Shown here: positions 1-61,146 of the stretch, one piece after another
How the letters are laid out: each line of letters begins with the position of its first letter
How positions within the stretch are numbered: the stretch's first letter is position 1
Source of the DNA: Rhea pennata
Lineage: Eukaryota; Chordata; Aves; Rheiformes; Rheidae
Reading direction: 5' to 3'
Assembly (NCBI RefSeq): GCF_028389875.1
Contig: NC_084670.1
Location: 16,339,383-16,403,382, forward strand
Length of the DNA: 64,000 nt
Notes under the pieces: model-generated
The model's input: only the letters and a program-made list of their open reading frames with translations
Told to the model about the DNA's origin: nothing
The model's database searches: none
Made by a program: the position numbers and the translations under genes

Positions 1-15710
<15,710 letters not shown>

Positions 15711-38289: not shown

Positions 38290-41200
38290 ATATATATATT
38301 TACAGATTGAATCTTTTATTTGCTGTTTAGGATAAATTAAATAAAGTTCAACATCTTTAAGATTTATTGTGTTTTTTTTAATGCTGAGTTGTTGGGTTTT
38401 TTGTTTTTAAGTAGGAGATGAGACATTCAAAATGATAGTGTATGTCTTAGGAATGCATATCTTATGCAAAGATTTAAACGTGATTCTTCAAACGCTACTT
38501 CAATAAGTATGTATAGGTTTTTTGTGGTTCATAGCACATTTTACTTTTTAAGCCTCAGAATATACGCAACACCAAAAATTGAAAGGCATATTTTTGATTT
38601 AAAAAATAAGTGCAGTTCTGATAAGGCGAGAGAGTCAGATATTCAGTTCTGTAGAGTGTTACCTATTTCTGTAATTGCAGTCAGTGAAGCAGTTCATAAA
38701 GTAAGGTATTACTTGATGAGTAAGAAACTCTAGTCCCTAGCTCATTGCTCTCGAATATGTTTATATTTTAGAGATAAATGAAAATAACAGCTTTTAGAAG
38801 GGTAATTGCAGCATAAAGTGTGAAATCTGGGTTGCCATATGAGTCTGTAGAGCAATAATTTTCTTGCCATATTCAAAGGTACATCCTAAGAGTCAGGGGA
38901 GAAGTGAAAATCACTGTGTTCGTGAGTCCTCCATCACAGGATCAGCTTACTCATAGTAGTTGGGATGTTGTTGAAATGAAGTGACTTGAGGTACTATCTG
39001 TGATTCTGCCCCCTTCTCATCATGGGCTGGTTAAAAGTGGTGGGCCCTTGATTCACTCAGATGTTTTGCTGAAGACATACTTAATAACGTTTTTCTGAAT
39101 CCTAGTGACCTGCCATTGTTGCTTTAGGGCAGCCATTTACTAAGCCAAGCCAACACATGTTAAGGTGATGGTAGTTAGAAAAGAAAAATTTGAAGAGCAG
39201 GAAGAAAGATGCTGTCAGGAGAATATTACGTGTGTTTGTTCTCCAGCTATTGCTACTGAAAATCAAGATCATATGTTTAAACTTCAGGGCCTGAAATGGG
39301 TAGGACTCTGGCATCTGCCCTGCTATGTACACATTTGTTATTTCATCATTAGTGTTACAGTTAAGCATGCATGACAGTGGAAAATATTCAGGATGAACTT
39401 GAAGGTGAAATGAGACCTCTAGTTGGAGAAGCATGTTCTAAAAGTTGTATATTTTGAAATGTATCTTGCTCTTCATGCCTCTAAATTGCTGCAGGAAAGG
39501 CAGTCAAGTTTCACTGTATGTATTTTTCACCAAGAATTTGCAGATACGCAAAGGTTATCTGAGATAGCAAAATGGAAGGTTGAGCATAAGGATACCAATA
39601 TGGATGTTTAGTTGTTTCTGTTACTGTGGAAAGCAATTGCCTGAGGTCAATCAGAAGGAATTTATTCTGATTGTGTTTAACAGCTGCTTTCCAGGATTAA
39701 TAGCTTTTTAAAAAGTCCATAGATTTGTCCAAAGATGAGTCCAAAAGCAATTTTGGAATAGGTTTTATTTAGAGCTATTGGTGCAGTCAATGGTGGTTTT
39801 GTTTTTCTGTTTTACAAGGTAAAAGTGGTTTCCAATAGTTCCTACCAATGTTACAAAGAAGTATTATGTCATCTTGGAAAAGACTAAGCCACACACTGCT
39901 ATTCTTTATAAGTATTTGGTGGTTGAAAACAGAGGTCTCAAGTCTGGGTTTTGGTATCTCAGACATGGCAAAGGCAGCCACTCCACAGGTGAAGGTCGTG
40001 ACTGATTACATTTGACTGATGTGAAGATTCCTATATTTTCCTCTTTTCTGAAGAGAGGTATCTCAGTGGTCCCCATGTCAGGTCTTTGAAATGGAAGAAA
40101 CAGGAGTGACTGTTCTGTCTTGGAGATCTCGAAGGATACTTTCCCTGGAGAAATGGAAAGGGAAAGGATGTACGTGGGTTGTGCACAAAGAAGCAACTGC
40201 ACATAGTCTGCACATACTTAGTGATTATTCATCTGTATTTGCATTTTGCAGTTCAGTAGAGAACGGGAGACCTCCAGACCCTGCTGACTGGGCTGTTATT
40301 GATGTTGTGAATTACTTCAGAACAGCGGGATTTGAAGAACAAGCCAATGCTTTTCAAGAACAGGTAAATCTGTTAGGAAACATGCATTCACCCTTTGACT
40401 GCCACCACCTTCTCACACTGCACATTTTTGCAATGGATCTGATTATTCAGTTAGTAGGTAGTAAAGTGTTGTGAAGGATCCTTGAAAATTACTGTTAGGG
40501 GGGTGAAAATCCATGAGACTGTTTTGATCTTTTAGTAACAACCTTGCTCCACAAGATGTGGATAGTGGGATGAAAATGGAGTATGTGTTTAAAGCACTCA
40601 TCTGAAAGCTGAGGAGTCTAAACAGATTTTCTGGCTTAGTCTCAGACTATACAAGCCATTCAGTTCCACTGTTTTGTTGTTTAAGATGAGGATGGTAGTT
40701 CTCTTCTTAAGTGCACTATGCAAATACGCTCATGAGTTTATAAAATCCTGGGATCCTAAGAAGCAATTTACTTTCGAAGACCTAGGATGAAAAAAGGCTG
40801 CTGTGTCCCATTGGCTTGACAGTGCAAGCAAACAGGAAGAGGGGAAGTTGATGATAAGGGGGAAAATATCTTTTCTTGCACAGGAGCAACGTGTTTGCAG
40901 GACTCTGAGAAGAAAGGTCAGGCGTTCCTTTTTGGGTCTTGTGGGAGGAAGGCAAAAGATTGTGTTGGTGCTTTTAAGCCTGAATAAGATCTGGAGAGTC
41001 TGTTTCCTGCAGCATATCTGTGAGCTGAGGAGAAATCGTGAACTGGAGAAAGCAGCCCTGTTTTCTGTGAAAAATTTCTCCTATCTGCCTTTGCTTGACA
41101 AAGTAATGTTACCAGAGAAAAGTCAATTAAAGGGGCTGCTATAAATTGCCTTCCAGAGAAAATGATGGCTGAAACACACCTTTTTTCACAAGTTGCTGCT

Positions 41201-44200: not shown

Positions 44201-46092
44201 TTTACTTTGGTTCCCACCAAGTTGAAGCTGTTCTTCATCCTTCATTCCATCACTGAACAGCATTGGAAAAGGCAACTTTAGATCAGTCATAAGAATGAGC
44301 AAAATAGTCAATGGTGTCAGAATTCCCACAAAAAGAATTGTGACAAGTGGAAGAGAGAGAATATAAACTGTTTCTAATTATTAACATTCTCAACAGTAAC
44401 TGGAAGGAGGCATCTGCTATAACCGGGTAAAACATTACTGAAAATATTTTTTTTAGAAATGCTAAGTTATGTTCTGCTTCATGTGAGAGATTAACAGTCA
44501 TATCTGATAAGACTTTAAAGCAATTCAACTCTCAGTTGATCTTTGATGATATTATGTTTTTTTCATACAGTTTGTATTTATAAATCATATCAAATGATAG
44601 AACTCACTTTGGGCAAATTAATGCTAAACTGTAATAAGTCTCCCTTGTATTAGGGTGATCTGGGACATTTGCAAGACAACATTTAATAGTTGTAAAGAAG
44701 ATACTGCAGTGGAATAAATTGATGTGGGATGTTTATATATAATGCTTTAAAAAATATATTTATAATAATATTATAATGCTTATAAAAATACAAATTACAG
44801 TTTGATAGTTAACTATATTGTGATGGACAACAACCATATATGCAAGCAGCTGAATCAGTTGTTGGCTATTGCTACCAAACTCAAAATTGTGTTTGCATGT
44901 TTTATTAAAAAACTTTAAAAAAAAAAATTAAAGAAAAAGGAACAAGATGAAGCCCAGTGCAGGAGAATACCATAAGACCATGTACTTTCTTGGGGTGTGG
45001 TGACCTTGGGAGCTGTGACACACTAGTGATGCACTGTTCTGTAGGTGTAGCTCATGTTTTTGTGATAGTATAGTATGATTGAGCTGCAGAGCTGTGTAAA
45101 GACAAGGACAGTCCCATGTCTTAAAATTAGGTAGAAGCTGAGAAATGCATATTTTTTCTCTTGCTTTTTGACCTTGAAAAAATCACTTACAGTTGATTTG
45201 CAACAGTATGACAAGGTTTTAAGGTGGAAAACTCCCCAAAGCTGACAGGATTTCTAATCTAAGTAGATCAGAAAGCCAGAGTCTGAGAGAAAAAGTGTAT
45301 TATCAATGATTTAAAGGTGGAATTTTAAGCACAAACAGGTAGGGGGTGTTGAGAATCGCACTGGAAAGTCGCTCCTCTTAGCCTCTTTCATTGTCAGTGG
45401 AGGAGGAAAAGTTCCTCCAGAGGGTTAAGTTCCAGTCAGATTTCTTTTAAAATTTCTGATTGTAGAAATCCTTTTTTTTTTTTTTTTCCCACAGAGACAT
45501 GTGAAGGGTAGCCTTTTAAAGTAAGGCACCTGAAGTTGTTAGCAAATCATGACAAGACTAGTCCAAACTTGCACATTGCTGTCAATAGTACTTCTGATAT
45601 GCAGTTCACTGCCTTCTTCCCATGAACATCTTTCCTTTTATGATGGAAAAGTAGACAATCTGCACACATGTACCTATTAATTTGTAACAGATTTAAAAGG
45701 AAAGAATTTTGAAGTGAGGTAGCTTCGGGTTTTGTGCTTGACTAAGTAGTATTTGTGCCTTAGCACAGATAAGCACTTGAAAATCAGACTACTAGAAGAA
45801 TTTAACAATTAAAACATAGTTTCAGAAAAATAAATGCTACTATTTATTTTTTCATTGATCCTCTGTAATAATCTTCCATTTGTTGCATTACTGTTCTCAC
45901 CTGTTAATTTCTGCATTGTCTTCATCAATTCTTTAATTCTTCTTATAGGAGATTGATGGCAAATCATTGCTGTTGATGACAAGAAATGATGTACTGACTG
46001 GACTTTCATTAAAACTGGGGCCTGCGCTGAAAATCTATGAATATCACGTAAAACCTCTACAGACACAACATCTAAAGAACAACTCTTTATAG
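35983..46092 (+). CDS. SAMD13: Sterile alpha motif domain-containing protein 13 (three recognised coding exons)
   Basis: Exons 35983-36067, 40252-40363 and 45949-46092 join in frame at GT..AG introns. From the ATG at 36015 they give a 102-residue protein beginning [13 protein letters not shown] and ending QHLKNNSL. Residues about 29-95 form a SAM domain ([10 protein letters not shown] ... [16 protein letters not shown] ... [14 protein letters not shown]), a helical protein-interaction module. The match to mammalian SAMD13 as I remember it is close across the whole length. The frame is open upstream of ATG 36015 ([10 protein letters not shown]) and resembles the human long isoform. The ATG also has a weak context (C at -3), so translation probably starts in an upstream exon. 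The cellular role of SAMD13 is poorly known. Its position after PRKACB in the same direction is the conserved arrangement. Confidence 0.93.
36068..40251 (+). other. SAMD13: SAMD13 intron
   Basis: About 4.2 kb, with one TA microsatellite at 38248-38300. No other exon or transposon is recognised. Confidence 0.8.
38248..38300. repeat. A-run plus (TA)n microsatellite
   Basis: About ten A bases lead into some 20 TA steps with a single phase break, so the sequence is self-complementary along its length. Confidence 0.9.
40252..40363 (+). CDS. SAMD13: SAMD13 exon: first half of the SAM domain
   Basis: The 112-base exon follows gcattttgcag and ends with a gtaaat donor. It encodes [13 protein letters not shown] and [20 protein letters not shown], and leaves in phase 0. 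Confidence 0.95.
40364..45948 (+). other. SAMD13: SAMD13 intron
   Basis: About 5.6 kb. It includes a moderately long open frame at 43175-43522 and a T-run near 45472-45487. The protein from that frame resembles nothing I recognise and has no splice or conservation support, so I treat it as chance. Confidence 0.75.
45949..46092 (+). CDS. SAMD13: SAMD13 last coding exon
   Basis: The exon starts after ttcttcttatag, reads [18 protein letters not shown] and continues to LKNNSL with a TAG stop at 46090-46092. It completes the SAM domain. Confidence 0.96.
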
Positions 46093-46475
46093 CGAATTGT
46101 CTAATTGGGGTCATGTTGTGCCTCAAACAATAAATAAGCAATTTGGTTTCATGTAATGGAACTTTGTAAAGAGAGAATATATCTATTAAGAATTTAAACC
46201 AAATTACAATGATATATATCCTATTGGATAGAGCTGGCAATATAATATATACTAAGTCTGAACTGAGAGAGGTGGTGTGTATTTTTTCATGGTGCATAAC
46301 AATTTTCTCTTTTAGGATTTGTCAGTAAGTGTATTGAGATAGCTACATCACTGTATCCAGAACAAAAGGGAAGTATGGTCATTCTCATTTTTGAGCCAGA
46401 TATATTCTTTTTTCATGAGTTAAAATACCAAAAAGAGAACAAAGATAAAGTTTACATGCATCTTTGGGAGAAAGA

Positions 46476-55587: not shown

Positions 55588-56108
55588 CGTATACTTCACA
55601 AAGCAATAAATGTCTGAGTCTCCATTCAGCTCTGTAGAACTTGGCATCAAGGTGTCACTACAGCTTGCATTAATGAAATGTCTGGTCTTATGCCTGTATA
55701 TTAATTTTAGTGGAGGAAGATTAATAAATAGAATATTCAGAATTGATCATTTTGCATATCAAAAGCATGCTATAGATGTTATGAAATTAATTGACTGTTT
55801 CATTAATAGGGGAATAACTGGCTTAAAAATTCACTAGAATGTTTCCAGCTGGGATTTTCAAGAAAGCCTAAGGAAATTCAATCTGCAAATCACACTGACA
55901 TTCAGGGAGATACTTTGATATTCGAATTTCTGAGACTTCTTTGGAAATCCTAGACTCAAGAATTCACAGAGGCAAAAGCAGTCAGGAATGGAAGGGGCCA
56001 ATAATCGGTATACATTGATAGGAAAACTACATTAAGTTTTTCAGGAATTTATAAGTGGAGCAAAGAGGTGTAGTTTGTTTTCTGGGCAGCTGCCAATCCA
56101 AAATGACT

Positions 56109-56210
56109 TTACTTCTCATCTTTTAACACTTGGCCTTGTGCTTCCAAGAACTTCTTTCTGCCAAGTGTGCAAGTGCAGGAACCATAGGGCGTTTCCACTG
56201 GAACGAGAAC
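56109..56210 (-). CDS. UOX: UOX last exon with altered C-terminus
   Basis: The acceptor is gttcttctcag. The exon reads VLVPVETPYGSCTCTLGRKK, matching the usual VLLPLDNPYGKITGTVKRK, and then a nine-residue longer tail ending LKDEK with TAA at 56109-56111. None of the three frames at this point gives an SRL-type ending. Confidence 0.9.
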   Translation of the reverse strand, partial: VLVPVETPYGSCTCTLGRKKFLEAQGQVLKDEK

Positions 56211-59200
56211 CTGAGAAGAACAAGCAGAATCATGGAGGTCATTCCTGAGGCAAGGATGTGCCAGCGCCATCAGAGGAGCATGGTACTACAGTAGCTGGCC
56301 AGCAGAAACTGCAGCTATTCACTTCCTCTGAAAATCATTCCCCTTTCCTTTCCTTATGAATATTAATGGTAGGTTTTGCTTTTATCTCAAGTGAAAGCAC
56401 ATTTGAAGTGTTCACCCAAAAGAGAACAAGGAACATTGCAGGAGAATCACAAGCATTAGGGAGGGAGACTAGAGAATGAACAGACCATAGACTATTGATC
56501 AATCAAAATCACTGTTGCAAAAATGAGTAACCCAGTTACTCTGAGATATTCACATGAGGATAACATTTAGACAGATTTTCAGCTGAACTTAGCCATCAGC
56601 TGGAACAGCTGTGGAGGAGGGAGTAAATCTTCATGTCCCCTAATCTTCAATCCAAGGCTAATTCCTTGTCCACTGCTGGGCCAGTCTGCCTTGGCTCCTA
56701 TCAGCTACAGGAACAGTCTGTCCCTTCAGCACTCTAGGACCATGCTGATCTTCTGTCCACCTAGAGATTTAAGCCCATGGATTTAGTTAACCTAACTGTT
56801 ACACTGCTGCAGCAAGGGGAAATGACCATCACTGGCCTCGATGCTACTGCCAAAGAAGAATTATGTTAGGAAAGATAGCCATATTGGGCTAGCATTTCAG
56901 ACTGGCTATGTGAATGGACAATCTGATGTGTTCTGCTGATTGCAAGTGCAGAGGTTGACGTTATCACTAAAAGTCAAATTCGGCAGAGAAAACAGGAACG
57001 ATTTCTCAGATGGCTTCTGTGAGTGTAGTTACAGACTCTTTCAACCTCCCAAGAATTCTACCCTGCTCCTTGAGCTTTTATCAATAACACAAGAAAGCCA
57101 TTTGCTTTCTCTTGTAATCAGTGTAAATTTCGTATAAAGTTAGTATTCTCTTTGGTCAGGGTGGGAAGATTGCTCCTTTAACTCTGCTCTATGTAGAACT
57201 GCTGCCGTGGTTGAAAGGCGAGTATTTTTTTCTAGAGTCCTAGCAAGTTGTGTTTTGAGCATTTACTTACTTCTTTGTCATTGGTCAAGCCTAGATTCTT
57301 CATGTCTACAACATTGTAAAAAATGTTGTTCAAGATGACTTCAATGATCTGTACCTGAAACCATGCAAATAGGTAGGACAATGAATTAGTGCACCTTCTT
57401 AGCCAATGCCCTGGCAATATTTGCACATGTTGGAAAGAAAAACAATTGAAATCCTCAAAGAAAATCTGTGACGTTGATAAAATCCAATCTATTGAACATG
57501 TGAATAATTTTTTTATACCACCTCTTTCACTTTTAGCCTGGCCCTGCCAAGCATTGACTTTTTTCCCATTTTTTTTCACAGCTAGTGTTAACAGCTCTCA
57601 GGTCTGAACTTCTGGGTGCATTCACATTTGTTCAGACCATCTAGTTGTACCACCAAAAGGTTTCCAATCTGAGAACTGCCGTCAAAATAGGCTTGTTCTG
57701 GTCTTCTGAGTCCGATTAGTATTCAATATCATTTAAGTAAAGTGTTGACAGGAGGAATGAAGATACCTGTGACACTTTAGAAAGGATGAGCATCTGGATA
57801 CAGTTGACAGTCTTCTGGTAAGAGGGCGAATACTGCCCAGAGTCAGGTGGCCCAGAGAATGCCTCAAGGATGCACTCGCGGACTTTGTTCCTAGAGGTAA
57901 CATAGGCCATTACAAAATCTTGTATTAGGTGTCTGTGTCTATACTCATAATATTTTACTGTGTTTTTTTATTTTAAAAAATTTTCTGTGTCTTTTCTTAC
58001 CAACACATAGCATACGAGATTTCATGAAAGAATAATTTCTTTGTTCTGTCAAGTGACCCCAACTTACCAACCAACTCTATAATTTGCAAATAAGTGTTTT
58101 GCTTAAAGTATTTAACAAAGTAGGTGTAAGCGCATTCTCCTAAAGTATTGTGTATTGAACTACAAGCTACCCATTTAAATATTGTCCATTGGTGCACCAT
58201 CAGAGAGAGAAGCTAATGTATCCCTAGAGGTTTACTTTGAGCAGAAGATTGCCTTACACCCACGGGTATCAAGTAGGTAGAACTTCTTCTGAGATTCATG
58301 AGAGTGGTTGGTGGTCAGCAGATCTGGTCCTTATGCCTGCTGTGTTGTTTAGAGGAACTTTGGGTTCATAAATTAGGTGATAAATATATTCAATTTGACA
58401 TATACCATATGCAATCAAAGTCAAAATCTCTGCATTCGCCGTATGACCATTTGCAGAAGAGCTCTCCGCATAAAATCCTGTCCTTCCTTTCAGGAAGTGT
58501 GGTATGTTCGTTCTTATAGAAGCCTTCAAATCCAGACTGTGTTGTCTTCATAACTTTCAGATCTTTAATTCCAGCAAAAACAATCAGAGGACCTGCGATT
58601 CAAAAATACGAGACAGTATGAGCTCCTTTTTAGTCAAAGTGAAGGGAACTGTCTGGATGTGTACGTTTGCAACAGCAGCTCCAGAACCGTTAAGGATTCT
58701 CTCTGAGATACGGTTGTGCTTCTGGTGCAAGCCTCGTTACTTTTAAAAATTATTTTCTGGACTAATGTTAGTAGGAAGGTGAGAAATGAGACAGGAATTT
58801 TAGCTTTAAAGTCTGTCTCTTCAGGATCATGAAACTCTTAGTGAAGTCAAATGGAACTTTGTTTATGCATGGCGTGCAAAAATAGTAAGCATGTTCTGAA
58901 ATACTTATATGTGAAAAATGATTTGCATATAGACTTCAGTGCTTGTGTTCAAGTTAGCTTGATTTGCAGCAATGAAATTACATCTTTCTTAAAAATAAAA
59001 CCAAGGCATGATGACAGGTAACTGCAAACTAAGCAACTGGCCTATAGCAGTAAGGTTTTGTGGTATATTCTGGTAGGGTAATGTTAATAGTGAAAATGTA
59101 GGCTATAGCGTAATGCAAAAATGTAAGCAAACTGCTTACAGCAGGCTATTAAATCCTGTGACAATATATAAGAGTTTTGTTGTATGTATAATTATAACTA

Positions 59201-61146
59201 GTATGTGTTTCAGCTACATGTATAAACATAAGACTAGATTTCTTCTTCAGCTATGTCTAAGGGATCAAGGACTATAAAATTCAATCATAAATGTTTTCTG
59301 TGTTTTAGACCTCTGGAGAAGCCCTTTAACACCTTTAACTATCTCTAAAGCCATCTTCATCTATCATCAGTGGAAATATTTATAGAAAAGTAGGGAAAAA
59401 TAAAAATTCTCACCATTTCGACACTGCTCAGCTTCACAAAAGCGAATCCCATCAGGAACATATATAAATGAATGGATATGAGGAACGCCATTCTACAAAT
59501 ATGGAGCAGACATGTAAGTAAAAGTGCAGTGAATTGTATCCAAACTTGAAAAGAGGAACTAAAAAAAGCAACAAATGGCTCGAGCATAAACAAAATCAGC
59601 ATATTAGCATTTTAGATACCTCATGTAGACGTTGCCATGGTACTTCTTGAACGTAGGCTTTGACATACATCACTTGGCCAAATGTTGTCATGAAGTGTTT
59701 GCAGATATCAACAGCAAATTGTTCTAAAGTTTGGATCTAAGGCAACAAAATACAGTTAGAACTCAGCAATTACTTCGTCTGCAGGAGTAGATTGTTCTAA
59801 TTGTTCTAAATGTTTGGGAAGGATCAGTTTGGTTCAAATACTTTTTTTTTTTTTCTTTCAATTCTGGTTTTGCACACTGTATGCCTAGTCATTTGATCAG
59901 CTAGCAGCTACAGATTCACATCAAAAATCTCCTATTCCGTGCTGTAGTGAGCTGAAGTTTTTGGACTGAGAGAAACTGCTATGCAAGCCTGATCCTTTGA
60001 GGATATAATGTTAAAAAATCATAGTGATACTCTGGTTCAGCTGTACAGGCTAAAGATGGGATTCCATTAATGAGACTGAGGATTTGATCCACAAGTTGTC
60101 ATTATGATAGATGGAACTGGGGGAGTTAACACCGTGCATAGAACTAAGAGAAGTCTTATAATGCAGTATTATGTGCTATTACATTAAAAAAAGAAAAAGT
60201 ATATATACTAGAAAGCTACCCCAAAATACTTCTAGTTTTGTGAGAAAAAAGGCTGTGGAAAACTAAGGAGGTGTCCATGTTTCTGTGGTCAAATGCAGAG
60301 ATGGGCACATAACGTTTTCAAATTTGAGGTTACTCAGGTTTGAAAGGTTTGTCTGTTCAGTGAAAAATAAATTATGAGAGGGCAAGTTAACCAACATTCA
60401 AATTGTCAGAACAGGTCAGAGTGCTTCAGTTATCCTCTGTACTGAGGATAATTACTGGGGGAAGAAAAATCTCTTCTAAATCTTTGAAGGTGACAGTGCC
60501 AATCTAGCATATGTGGAGAAGAGAAGATTCTTTTGATGCATTTTGGAAAAAAAAATATATATATATAACAAATACTTCCAAATAAAGTCATAAGTAACAG
60601 CGAGGCTATTTTAAAAAAATTTAAAATACCCCATTTTTTTTGGCCAACACAAGGACAATATTCTTTATGGTGTCTGTGGGTATCACAGCAGAATTATCTC
60701 CCTCCAGGTACTCCTGGGCAGAAGTCAGCCGGATATGCGTGCACACTTCCACTTCTTTAATGAAGTGCTTCTTCCCTTCTCTTTTAACACGAAGGAACTT
60801 AATGGTGTTCTTGCCATATTCACAGTTGAGGACTTCTATATCTTTAATCTGCAATGAAAGCACATGATGGTGATGGATGAACTGGATGGAAGGATGAGCT
60901 ATCCTGAATCAATCAAACATAATTGATGTTTAGCGTTTTATTTCTATGGTTACCTGTGATAATGGGAATATTTCCATTATAAATTGCAAAGTCCTGATGG
61001 GAAGAAAAAATGCTTTAAGAAGATGTTATTACTTTGGTAACAGCTGTGATAGAATTTAGAACTTGAGTAGTAGTGAACAGCCATCTCTGATTTATCTTCT
61101 TTGGATTAATCCTGACTGTATATACCTTTAAGTCTTCCTCTACCAT
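56109..61146 (-). CDS. UOX: Urate oxidase, cysteine-rich avian form (complete, eight exons)
   Basis: Classical uricase oxidises urate to 5-hydroxyisourate and H2O2 in peroxisomes. Exons on the minus strand, in order, are 61126-61146, 60630-60848, 59620-59736, 59414-59492, 58406-58592, 57767-57890, 57271-57354 and 56109-56210. All are in frame and give 310 residues (the usual length is about 300). Family landmarks include YGKN (Lys20), DNSAVIPTDTIKN (Thr65), TTQSGFEGF (Phe167), the arginine of KDRIL (Arg184) and Gln240. The usual PNIHYF motif reads NNIFYN, so the active-site His is Phe261 while Asn259 is kept. The C-terminus has no SRL peroxisomal signal and ends LKDEK. There are 13 cysteines (16, 43, 92, 138, 143, 187, 192, 199, 206, 214, 238, 289, 291). 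The reading frame has no break, so this is not a pseudogene by sequence. It matches the cysteine-rich urate oxidase I recall from chicken, reported as weakly active and expressed in skin. The function in this species is inferred. Confidence 0.94.
56211..57270 (-). other. UOX: UOX intron 7
   Basis: About 1.06 kb between the last two coding exons with gtaagt...ttctcag ends. Nothing else is recognised. Confidence 0.8.
57271..57354 (-). CDS. UOX: UOX exon 7: altered active-site His segment
   Basis: The 84-base exon (28 codons) reads VQIIEVILNNIFYNVVDMKN and then LGLTNDKE before gtaagt. In uricases this segment carries N-x-H, and here it is NIF, so the histidine codon is TTT (Phe). Confidence 0.93.
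57355..57766 (-). other. UOX: UOX intron 6
   Basis: 412 bases with gtatct...tttcag ends. No other feature. Confidence 0.8.
57767..57890 (-). CDS. UOX: UOX exon 6: Gln segment
   Basis: The 124-base exon completes the split tryptophan codon and reads NKVRECILEAFSG, then GQYSPSYQKTVNCIQMLIL. The glutamine of CIQ corresponds to the substrate-binding Gln228 of the Aspergillus enzyme. Confidence 0.95.
57891..58405 (-). other. UOX: UOX intron 5
   Basis: 515 bases with gtatat...cctctag ends. No other feature. Confidence 0.8.
58406..58592 (-). CDS. UOX: UOX exon 5: Phe/Arg substrate-binding segment
   Basis: The 187-base exon completes the glycine and reads PLIVFAGIKDLKVMKTTQSG, FEGFYKNEHTTLPERKDRIL and CGELFCKWSYGECRDFDFDC. 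The phenylalanine of SGFEGF and the arginine of KDRIL are the expected urate-contacting residues. Four cysteines cluster in the last 21 codons. Confidence 0.96.
58593..59413 (-). other. UOX: UOX intron 4
   Basis: 821 bases with gtgaga...aatcgcag ends. No other feature. Confidence 0.8.
59414..59492 (-). CDS. UOX: UOX exon 4
   Basis: The 79-base exon reads NGVPHIHSFIYVPDG and then FCEAEQCRN plus the first base of a glycine codon, before donor gtgaga. Two cysteines lie within six residues. Confidence 0.93.
59620..59736 (-). CDS. UOX: UOX exon 3
   Basis: The 117-base exon (39 codons) reads IQTLEQFAVDICKHF to EVPWQRLHE. It is in phase 0 at both ends, and the acceptor is gttgccttag. Confidence 0.94.
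59737..60629 (-). other. UOX: UOX intron 2 with a small TA repeat
   Basis: 893 bases, containing an A-run followed by (TA)n at 60547-60567 and a T-run near 59842-59854. No exon is seen. Confidence 0.8.
60630..60848 (-). CDS. UOX: UOX exon 2: catalytic lysine and threonine
   Basis: The 219-base exon (73 codons) starts after ctttcattgcag and ends GGG|gtattt. It contains YGKN and the DNS...TDTIKN signature that supply the catalytic lysine and threonine. Confidence 0.95.
61126..61146 (-). CDS. UOX: UOX exon 1 (seven codons)
   Basis: Minus-strand ATG in strong context (gaaATGG) reads MVEEDLK and then a gtatat donor. Phase 0 agrees with exon 2, which begins IKDIEVL. The mammalian first exon is similarly short. 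No homology check is possible on seven residues, so the call rests on position, Kozak context and splice phase. Confidence 0.65.

Follow-up and report, generated by a model that had tools for sequence, protein, structure and literature searches.

The urate oxidase gene of Rhea pennata as a bird ortholog of the cysteine-rich urate oxidase of sauropsids

Introduction

That organisms excreting urate possess an intact but repurposed uricase is a striking example of co-option, described in 2023. The protein in question, cysteine-rich urate oxidase (CRUOX), is characterized in the accessible text of that report as weakly active, redox-sensitive and expressed in skin (Mori et al. 2023, PMC10517255). 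The first-pass annotation of the locus considered here had pointed to such a protein of chicken and reptile skin, and the published account agrees with it on all three points (PMC10517255). According to the same text, sauropsid CRUOX is enriched in cysteine about five-fold (about 5% vs 1%) and has a C-terminal extension of about 20 residues without a peroxisome signal, and in reptiles the first exon of UOX lies beyond DNASE2B (PMC10517255). In the chicken protein Cys98 cross-links tetramers in crystals and under peroxide, a property that is described there for chicken and termed sauropsid-specific, but is not made defining, while the cysteines are said to be 'not always conserved across species'; in the chicken crystals the C-terminal 18-20 residues show flexibility, and a low Ka/Ks is cited from Keebaugh and Thomas 2010 (PMC10517255).

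The CRUOX interpretation itself was published earlier (Mori et al. 2023, PMC10517255), and, judged by title and the start of the abstract, we found no other work on the function of bird uricase. The additions made here are a corrected first exon, a missing Cys98 and a shorter tail, of which the last two may already stand in the published supplementary alignments.

Results and discussion

Exon structure of the rhea gene

The window analyzed here is a stretch of 64,000 nucleotides of Rhea pennata DNA (16339383-16403382 of contig C8), in which an eight-exon, in-frame urate oxidase gene had been proposed on the minus strand. The eight predicted segments, when spliced, give 933 bases (310 codons and a stop) with GT and AG at 7 of the 7 junctions. 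Exons 2-8 (60848-56109) indeed join in frame with GT-AG sites into an uninterrupted uricase frame, and this part of the proposal stands together with all seven junctions and the absence of an internal stop; its exon 1 (61146-61126) almost certainly does not. In chicken numbering, exon 2 (60630..60848, 219 bases) carries Cys14, Tyr16, Lys18, Cys41, Pro62, Thr63 and Asp64, exon 3 (59620..59736, 117 bases) carries Cys90 and a Gly where chicken has Cys98, and exon 4 (59414..59492, 79 bases) carries Cys136 and Cys141. Phe165, Leu176, Arg182 and the cysteines 185, 190, 197 and 204 are encoded by exon 5 (58406..58592, 187 bases), along with a Phe where chicken has Cys149; Cys212, Cys236 and the triplet Ser229-Tyr230-Gln231 by exon 6 (57767..57890, 124 bases), with Ser223 and Leu240 where chicken has Cys. 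Exon 7 (57271..57354, 84 bases) has a Leu where chicken has Cys270, and exon 8 (56109..56210, 102 bases) ends the frame with Cys287, Cys289 and a TAA stop (56111-56109).

The Pfam Uricase profile (PF01014) scores 180.4 bits on this gene against a curated cut-off of 25. Profile searches covered 1.27 Gb in 180 contigs, and the Uricase search gave three matches (four candidates scored), within exons 2, 5 and 6; since they fall solely in this gene, the uricase appears to be single-copy. Rfam at gathering scores had no match anywhere in the window.

The first coding exon

The exon 1 of the first-pass annotation (61126..61146, minus strand; MVEEDLK, followed by the donor GTATAT) is almost certainly wrong. 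It shares zero identical residues with the chicken N terminus, and the chicken alignment extends only into its last two residues. The 1.1 kb that precede exon 2 hold seven in-phase ATG-to-GTR openings, which begin at four ATGs, that of MVEEDLK included, and none of which has a strong donor. Openings of this kind are thus common there, and the MVEEDLK stretch is probably a chance one and not an exon of the gene.

A chicken-like exon 1 lies on the same strand 15.3 kb outside the window, at 79290-79276 in extended window coordinates (C8:16418672-16418658). It reads ATGAGCCAAGAGACA followed by the donor GTAAGT, that is, ATG AGC CAA GAG ACA or MSQET, where the chicken CRUOX chain begins, after its cloning tag, with MSQVT. 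The start context is GCCACCATGA / GCCACCATG, and a TATA-like element, TTTTTATAGAG, begins about 82 bases before the ATG. The exon emerged from a search of 24 kb of the minus strand, from 61001 onward, with a pattern composed of a chicken-like start and a donor: in 23.5 kb, MSQET with GTAAGT was the sole site within one mismatch of the chicken-derived pattern, and also the sole one within two, the expected numbers per shuffle of these 23.5 kb being 0.0 and 0.33, respectively (100 shuffles). An ATG with up to 150 bases and a GTAAGT donor occurs four times in the 23.5 kb, and MSQET alone of the four is chicken-like.

The plus-strand matches to DNASE2B extend as far as C8:16411588 (72206 in window terms), 7.1 kb short of the distal exon. 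Judging from five codons and a donor site, the true exon 1 is likely MSQET beyond DNASE2B, and a first coding exon in this place, a feature of sauropsid CRUOX, is thus present in rhea on sequence evidence. The protein therefore most likely has 308 residues, in the register of the chicken numbering.

Comparison with chicken CRUOX and conventional uricases

Among 25 matched solved sequences, the best was chicken CRUOX (8ofk, 620 bits; second best, 348). The alignment with the Gallus gallus protein (GgUox; PDB 8ofk, 8oh8, 8oih, 8oiw; Mori et al. 2023) is free of gaps, with 263 of 308 residues identical (85.4%) and 45 different. The two birds have the same residue at each of the 11 active-site positions that Mori et al. 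list (16, 18, 62-64, 165, 176, 182, 229-231; PMC10517255), which taken alone is not significant (p = 0.17). Among these residues is Tyr230, a sauropsid CRUOX feature, at a position where the published description of conventional uricase has an aliphatic residue; that description also gives conventional uricase a peroxisomal tail signal and an exon 1 in a bidirectional promoter with DNASE2B (PMC10517255). Like the chicken gene, the rhea gene has its exon 1 beyond DNASE2B and lacks a peroxisome signal. Together with the match to chicken and the active-site residues, these features identify the gene as CRUOX, as the first-pass annotation had proposed. As another bird sequence, read independently, it bears out both the displacement of the first exon and the core set of cysteines.

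The conventional vertebrate uricases 4mb8 (ancestral mammal type) and 5ll1 (presumably the zebrafish enzyme) belong to the same family and are 50.5% and 45.3% identical to the rhea protein over 289 columns. The enrichment in cysteine that had been noted from the sequence is evident in these columns: rhea has 13, and the two non-reptile rows have four (4/289) and five (5/287). Nine of the 13 are missing from both rows, and the content of the whole rhea protein is 13/308, or 4.2%. Positions 16, 43, 92, 138, 143, 187, 192, 199, 206, 214, 238, 289 and 291 of the original numbering were all recovered, named clusters included, in the spliced translation; two less gives the chicken numbering (14, 41, 90, 136, 141, 185, 190, 197, 204, 212, 236, 287 and 289). 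The clustering itself lies within chance expectation, both for five cysteines in 28 residues (p = 0.13) and for six spacings of at most 10 (p = 0.18), and was discarded as evidence.

Chicken has 18 cysteines and shares all 13 of rhea, including Cys14, Cys287 and Cys289, which lie nearest to the urate site, and Cys41, Cys141, Cys197 and Cys204, which are oxidized in the chicken protein. At the five other positions rhea has Gly98, Phe149, Ser223, Leu240 and Leu270. Leu is found at 240 and 270 in both outgroup rows, which by parsimony makes these two cysteines gains in chicken. The rhea residues at 98, 149 and 223 are unlike either outgroup, and their codons (GGC, TTT, TCT) are each one base from a Cys codon; this is the pattern expected, short of proof, if the three cysteines were lost in the rhea lineage, as may be the case. 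With Gly at the site of Cys98, the cross-linking residue of chicken CRUOX, disulfide cross-linking of the chicken type cannot use residue 98 in this bird.

The proteins differ further at the C terminus. The rhea TAA stands at chicken Gln309, and the rhea protein ends in -DEK, which we take not to be a peroxisomal signal. The chicken sequence continues past DEK with QSQFGLVAAQ, and its length of about 320 residues (a 343-residue chain less a 23-residue tag; 308 in rhea) implies two more. Rhea has an extension at the C terminus, but one at least 10, probably 12, residues shorter than that of chicken. Behind the stop (56073..56108, minus strand), the reading SHFGLAAAQ agrees with the chicken coding tail SQFGLVAAQ in 7 of 9 residues; the common ancestor therefore probably translated the tail, of which the stretch is probably a remnant. 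At least one bird, then, seems able to do without Cys98 and the tail end, and this constrains the aggregation model.

Pattern of selection

That chicken shares 13 of 13 rhea cysteines is not significant (p = 0.12), and this was rejected as sole evidence for selection; the chicken cysteine positions change no less than the others (5/18 vs 40/290, p = 0.16). We compared the spectrum of the changes with a neutral simulation, in which the 303 codons from exon 2 on received random mutations up to a total of 44 residue differences, with 600 runs for each of three mutation settings, without indels and with stops counted but undone. The observed mean BLOSUM62 score of the changes is 0.59, compared with simulated means of -0.34 to -0.39 and a maximum of 0.48 among the 1800 runs. 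The share of changes with a positive score (0.52) is also above the simulated means (0.33-0.34), but in two of the three settings individual runs came up to it (maxima 0.52, 0.50 and 0.57). The probability of meeting no stop was 0.06-0.07, and that of keeping all 24 active-site and cysteine positions 0.013-0.022 (0.019 by the hypergeometric distribution).

The differences between the birds are not those of neutral change, and the spectrum supports selection against decay; a mean score beyond all 1800 runs speaks for the original proposal that selection rather than decay has shaped the gene. Simulated from the rhea coding sequence, a gain of five or more cysteines with none lost, the pattern of chicken relative to rhea, has a probability of 0.002-0.003. 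The cysteine difference is hence not a neutral draw, and could reflect loss in rhea or gain near chicken. Where one bird keeps the outgroup residue (20 differences), rhea keeps it in 12, the remaining 19 of the 39 differences in residues 6-294 being uninformative; the rhea lineage has thus not been faster than that of chicken.

Possible role of the protein

The explanation as a whole, a bird ortholog of sauropsid CRUOX that would oxidize urate slowly, reduce 5-hydroxyisourate and act in skin and feather outside peroxisomes, has in our estimate a probability of about 95%. It is hardly conceivable that the gene is a conventional urate-degrading uricase kept for purine breakdown. The active site is intact, as such an enzyme would need, and the family of the next enzyme, hydroxyisourate hydrolase, is represented on C13 by two exon matches; they and a weaker match on C2, which we assume may be transthyretin, all stay below the curated cut-off. 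The third enzyme of the pathway, OHCU decarboxylase, had no match in the genome (one profile, six frames, exon by exon), and, with exons searched singly, the two results fit a lineage without uricolysis. The missing peroxisome signal, Tyr230, the richness in cysteine and the relocated exon 1 also speak against a conventional uricase, as do, in the accessible text on the chicken ortholog, a kcat over 100-fold lower and the absence of liver transcripts (PMC10517255).

Early decay, in which the gene has lost its importance for this bird and the core simply happens to be still unbroken, is very improbable as well, if less so. On this account the short tail and the missing Cys98, Cys149 and Cys223 would be the first steps; the TAA at Gln309 with coding-like sequence behind it and the five absent chicken cysteines agree with it, and the rarity of a simulated five-cysteine gain makes loss possible. 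Against it, none of the 1800 neutral runs attains the mean similarity of the changed residues, the frame of 308 codons and its splice sites is unbroken, the rhea lineage keeps the outgroup residue in 12 of 20 cases and is not the faster one, and the lost tail belongs to the flexible 18-20 residues of the chicken crystals.

As a CRUOX, the rhea protein is predicted from its sequence to adopt the uricase tetramer fold, with urate bound at dimer interfaces by the Thr63/Lys18 dyad, Arg182, Gln231 and Phe165. It would slowly oxidize urate to 5-hydroxyisourate and hydrogen peroxide and, as measured for chicken, could reduce 5-hydroxyisourate back to urate, perhaps via the nearby thiols Cys287, Cys14 and Cys289. 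The gene would be driven by a promoter and exon relocated beyond DNASE2B, from which expression is expected in skin and feather epithelium and not in liver; the protein is expected outside peroxisomes.

More tentatively, the retention of the urate-site thiols (Cys14, 287 and 289) and the oxidizable set (41, 141, 197 and 204), with Cys98 lost or never present and the tail end gone, might mean that the conserved role is thiol-driven cycling of urate and hydroxyisourate or sensing of peroxide, self-aggregation being an elaboration on the chicken side or proceeding via other cysteines; we regard this as possible, but doubtful. If true, a comparison of birds would separate the two roles proposed for CRUOX, thiol cycling or peroxide sensing on the one hand and self-aggregation on the other.

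Other features of the locus and the genome

Several further observations concern the neighborhood of the gene. The DNase II profile has four matches in the genome, all at one gene, DNASE2B, which adjoins the UOX locus; this is in line with the loss of DNASE2 in birds, as stated in the accessible text of the published account (PMC9208542). On the minus strand of the window, a 170-codon open stretch, from stop to stop, lies at 45812-46321 outside any assigned gene. An exon of a cAMP-dependent protein kinase catalytic subunit (11059-11472, plus strand; best match 1.8e-33, to PKA alpha chains) contains a shorter piece without a Pfam match, and by synteny we take it to be probably PRKACB. Similarly, an exon with a SAM-domain start like that of SAMD1/atherin (40052-40471, plus strand; 1.5e-7), of which a short piece had no Pfam match, presumably belongs to SAMD13, again by synteny.

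Genome-wide, the beta-keratin family has at least 150 matches (the best 150 of 178 candidates scored), many with equal scores, in large, regularly spaced arrays at C26:6188589-6479220 and on C2, C10 and C41. Genes of this family occur in other reptiles too.
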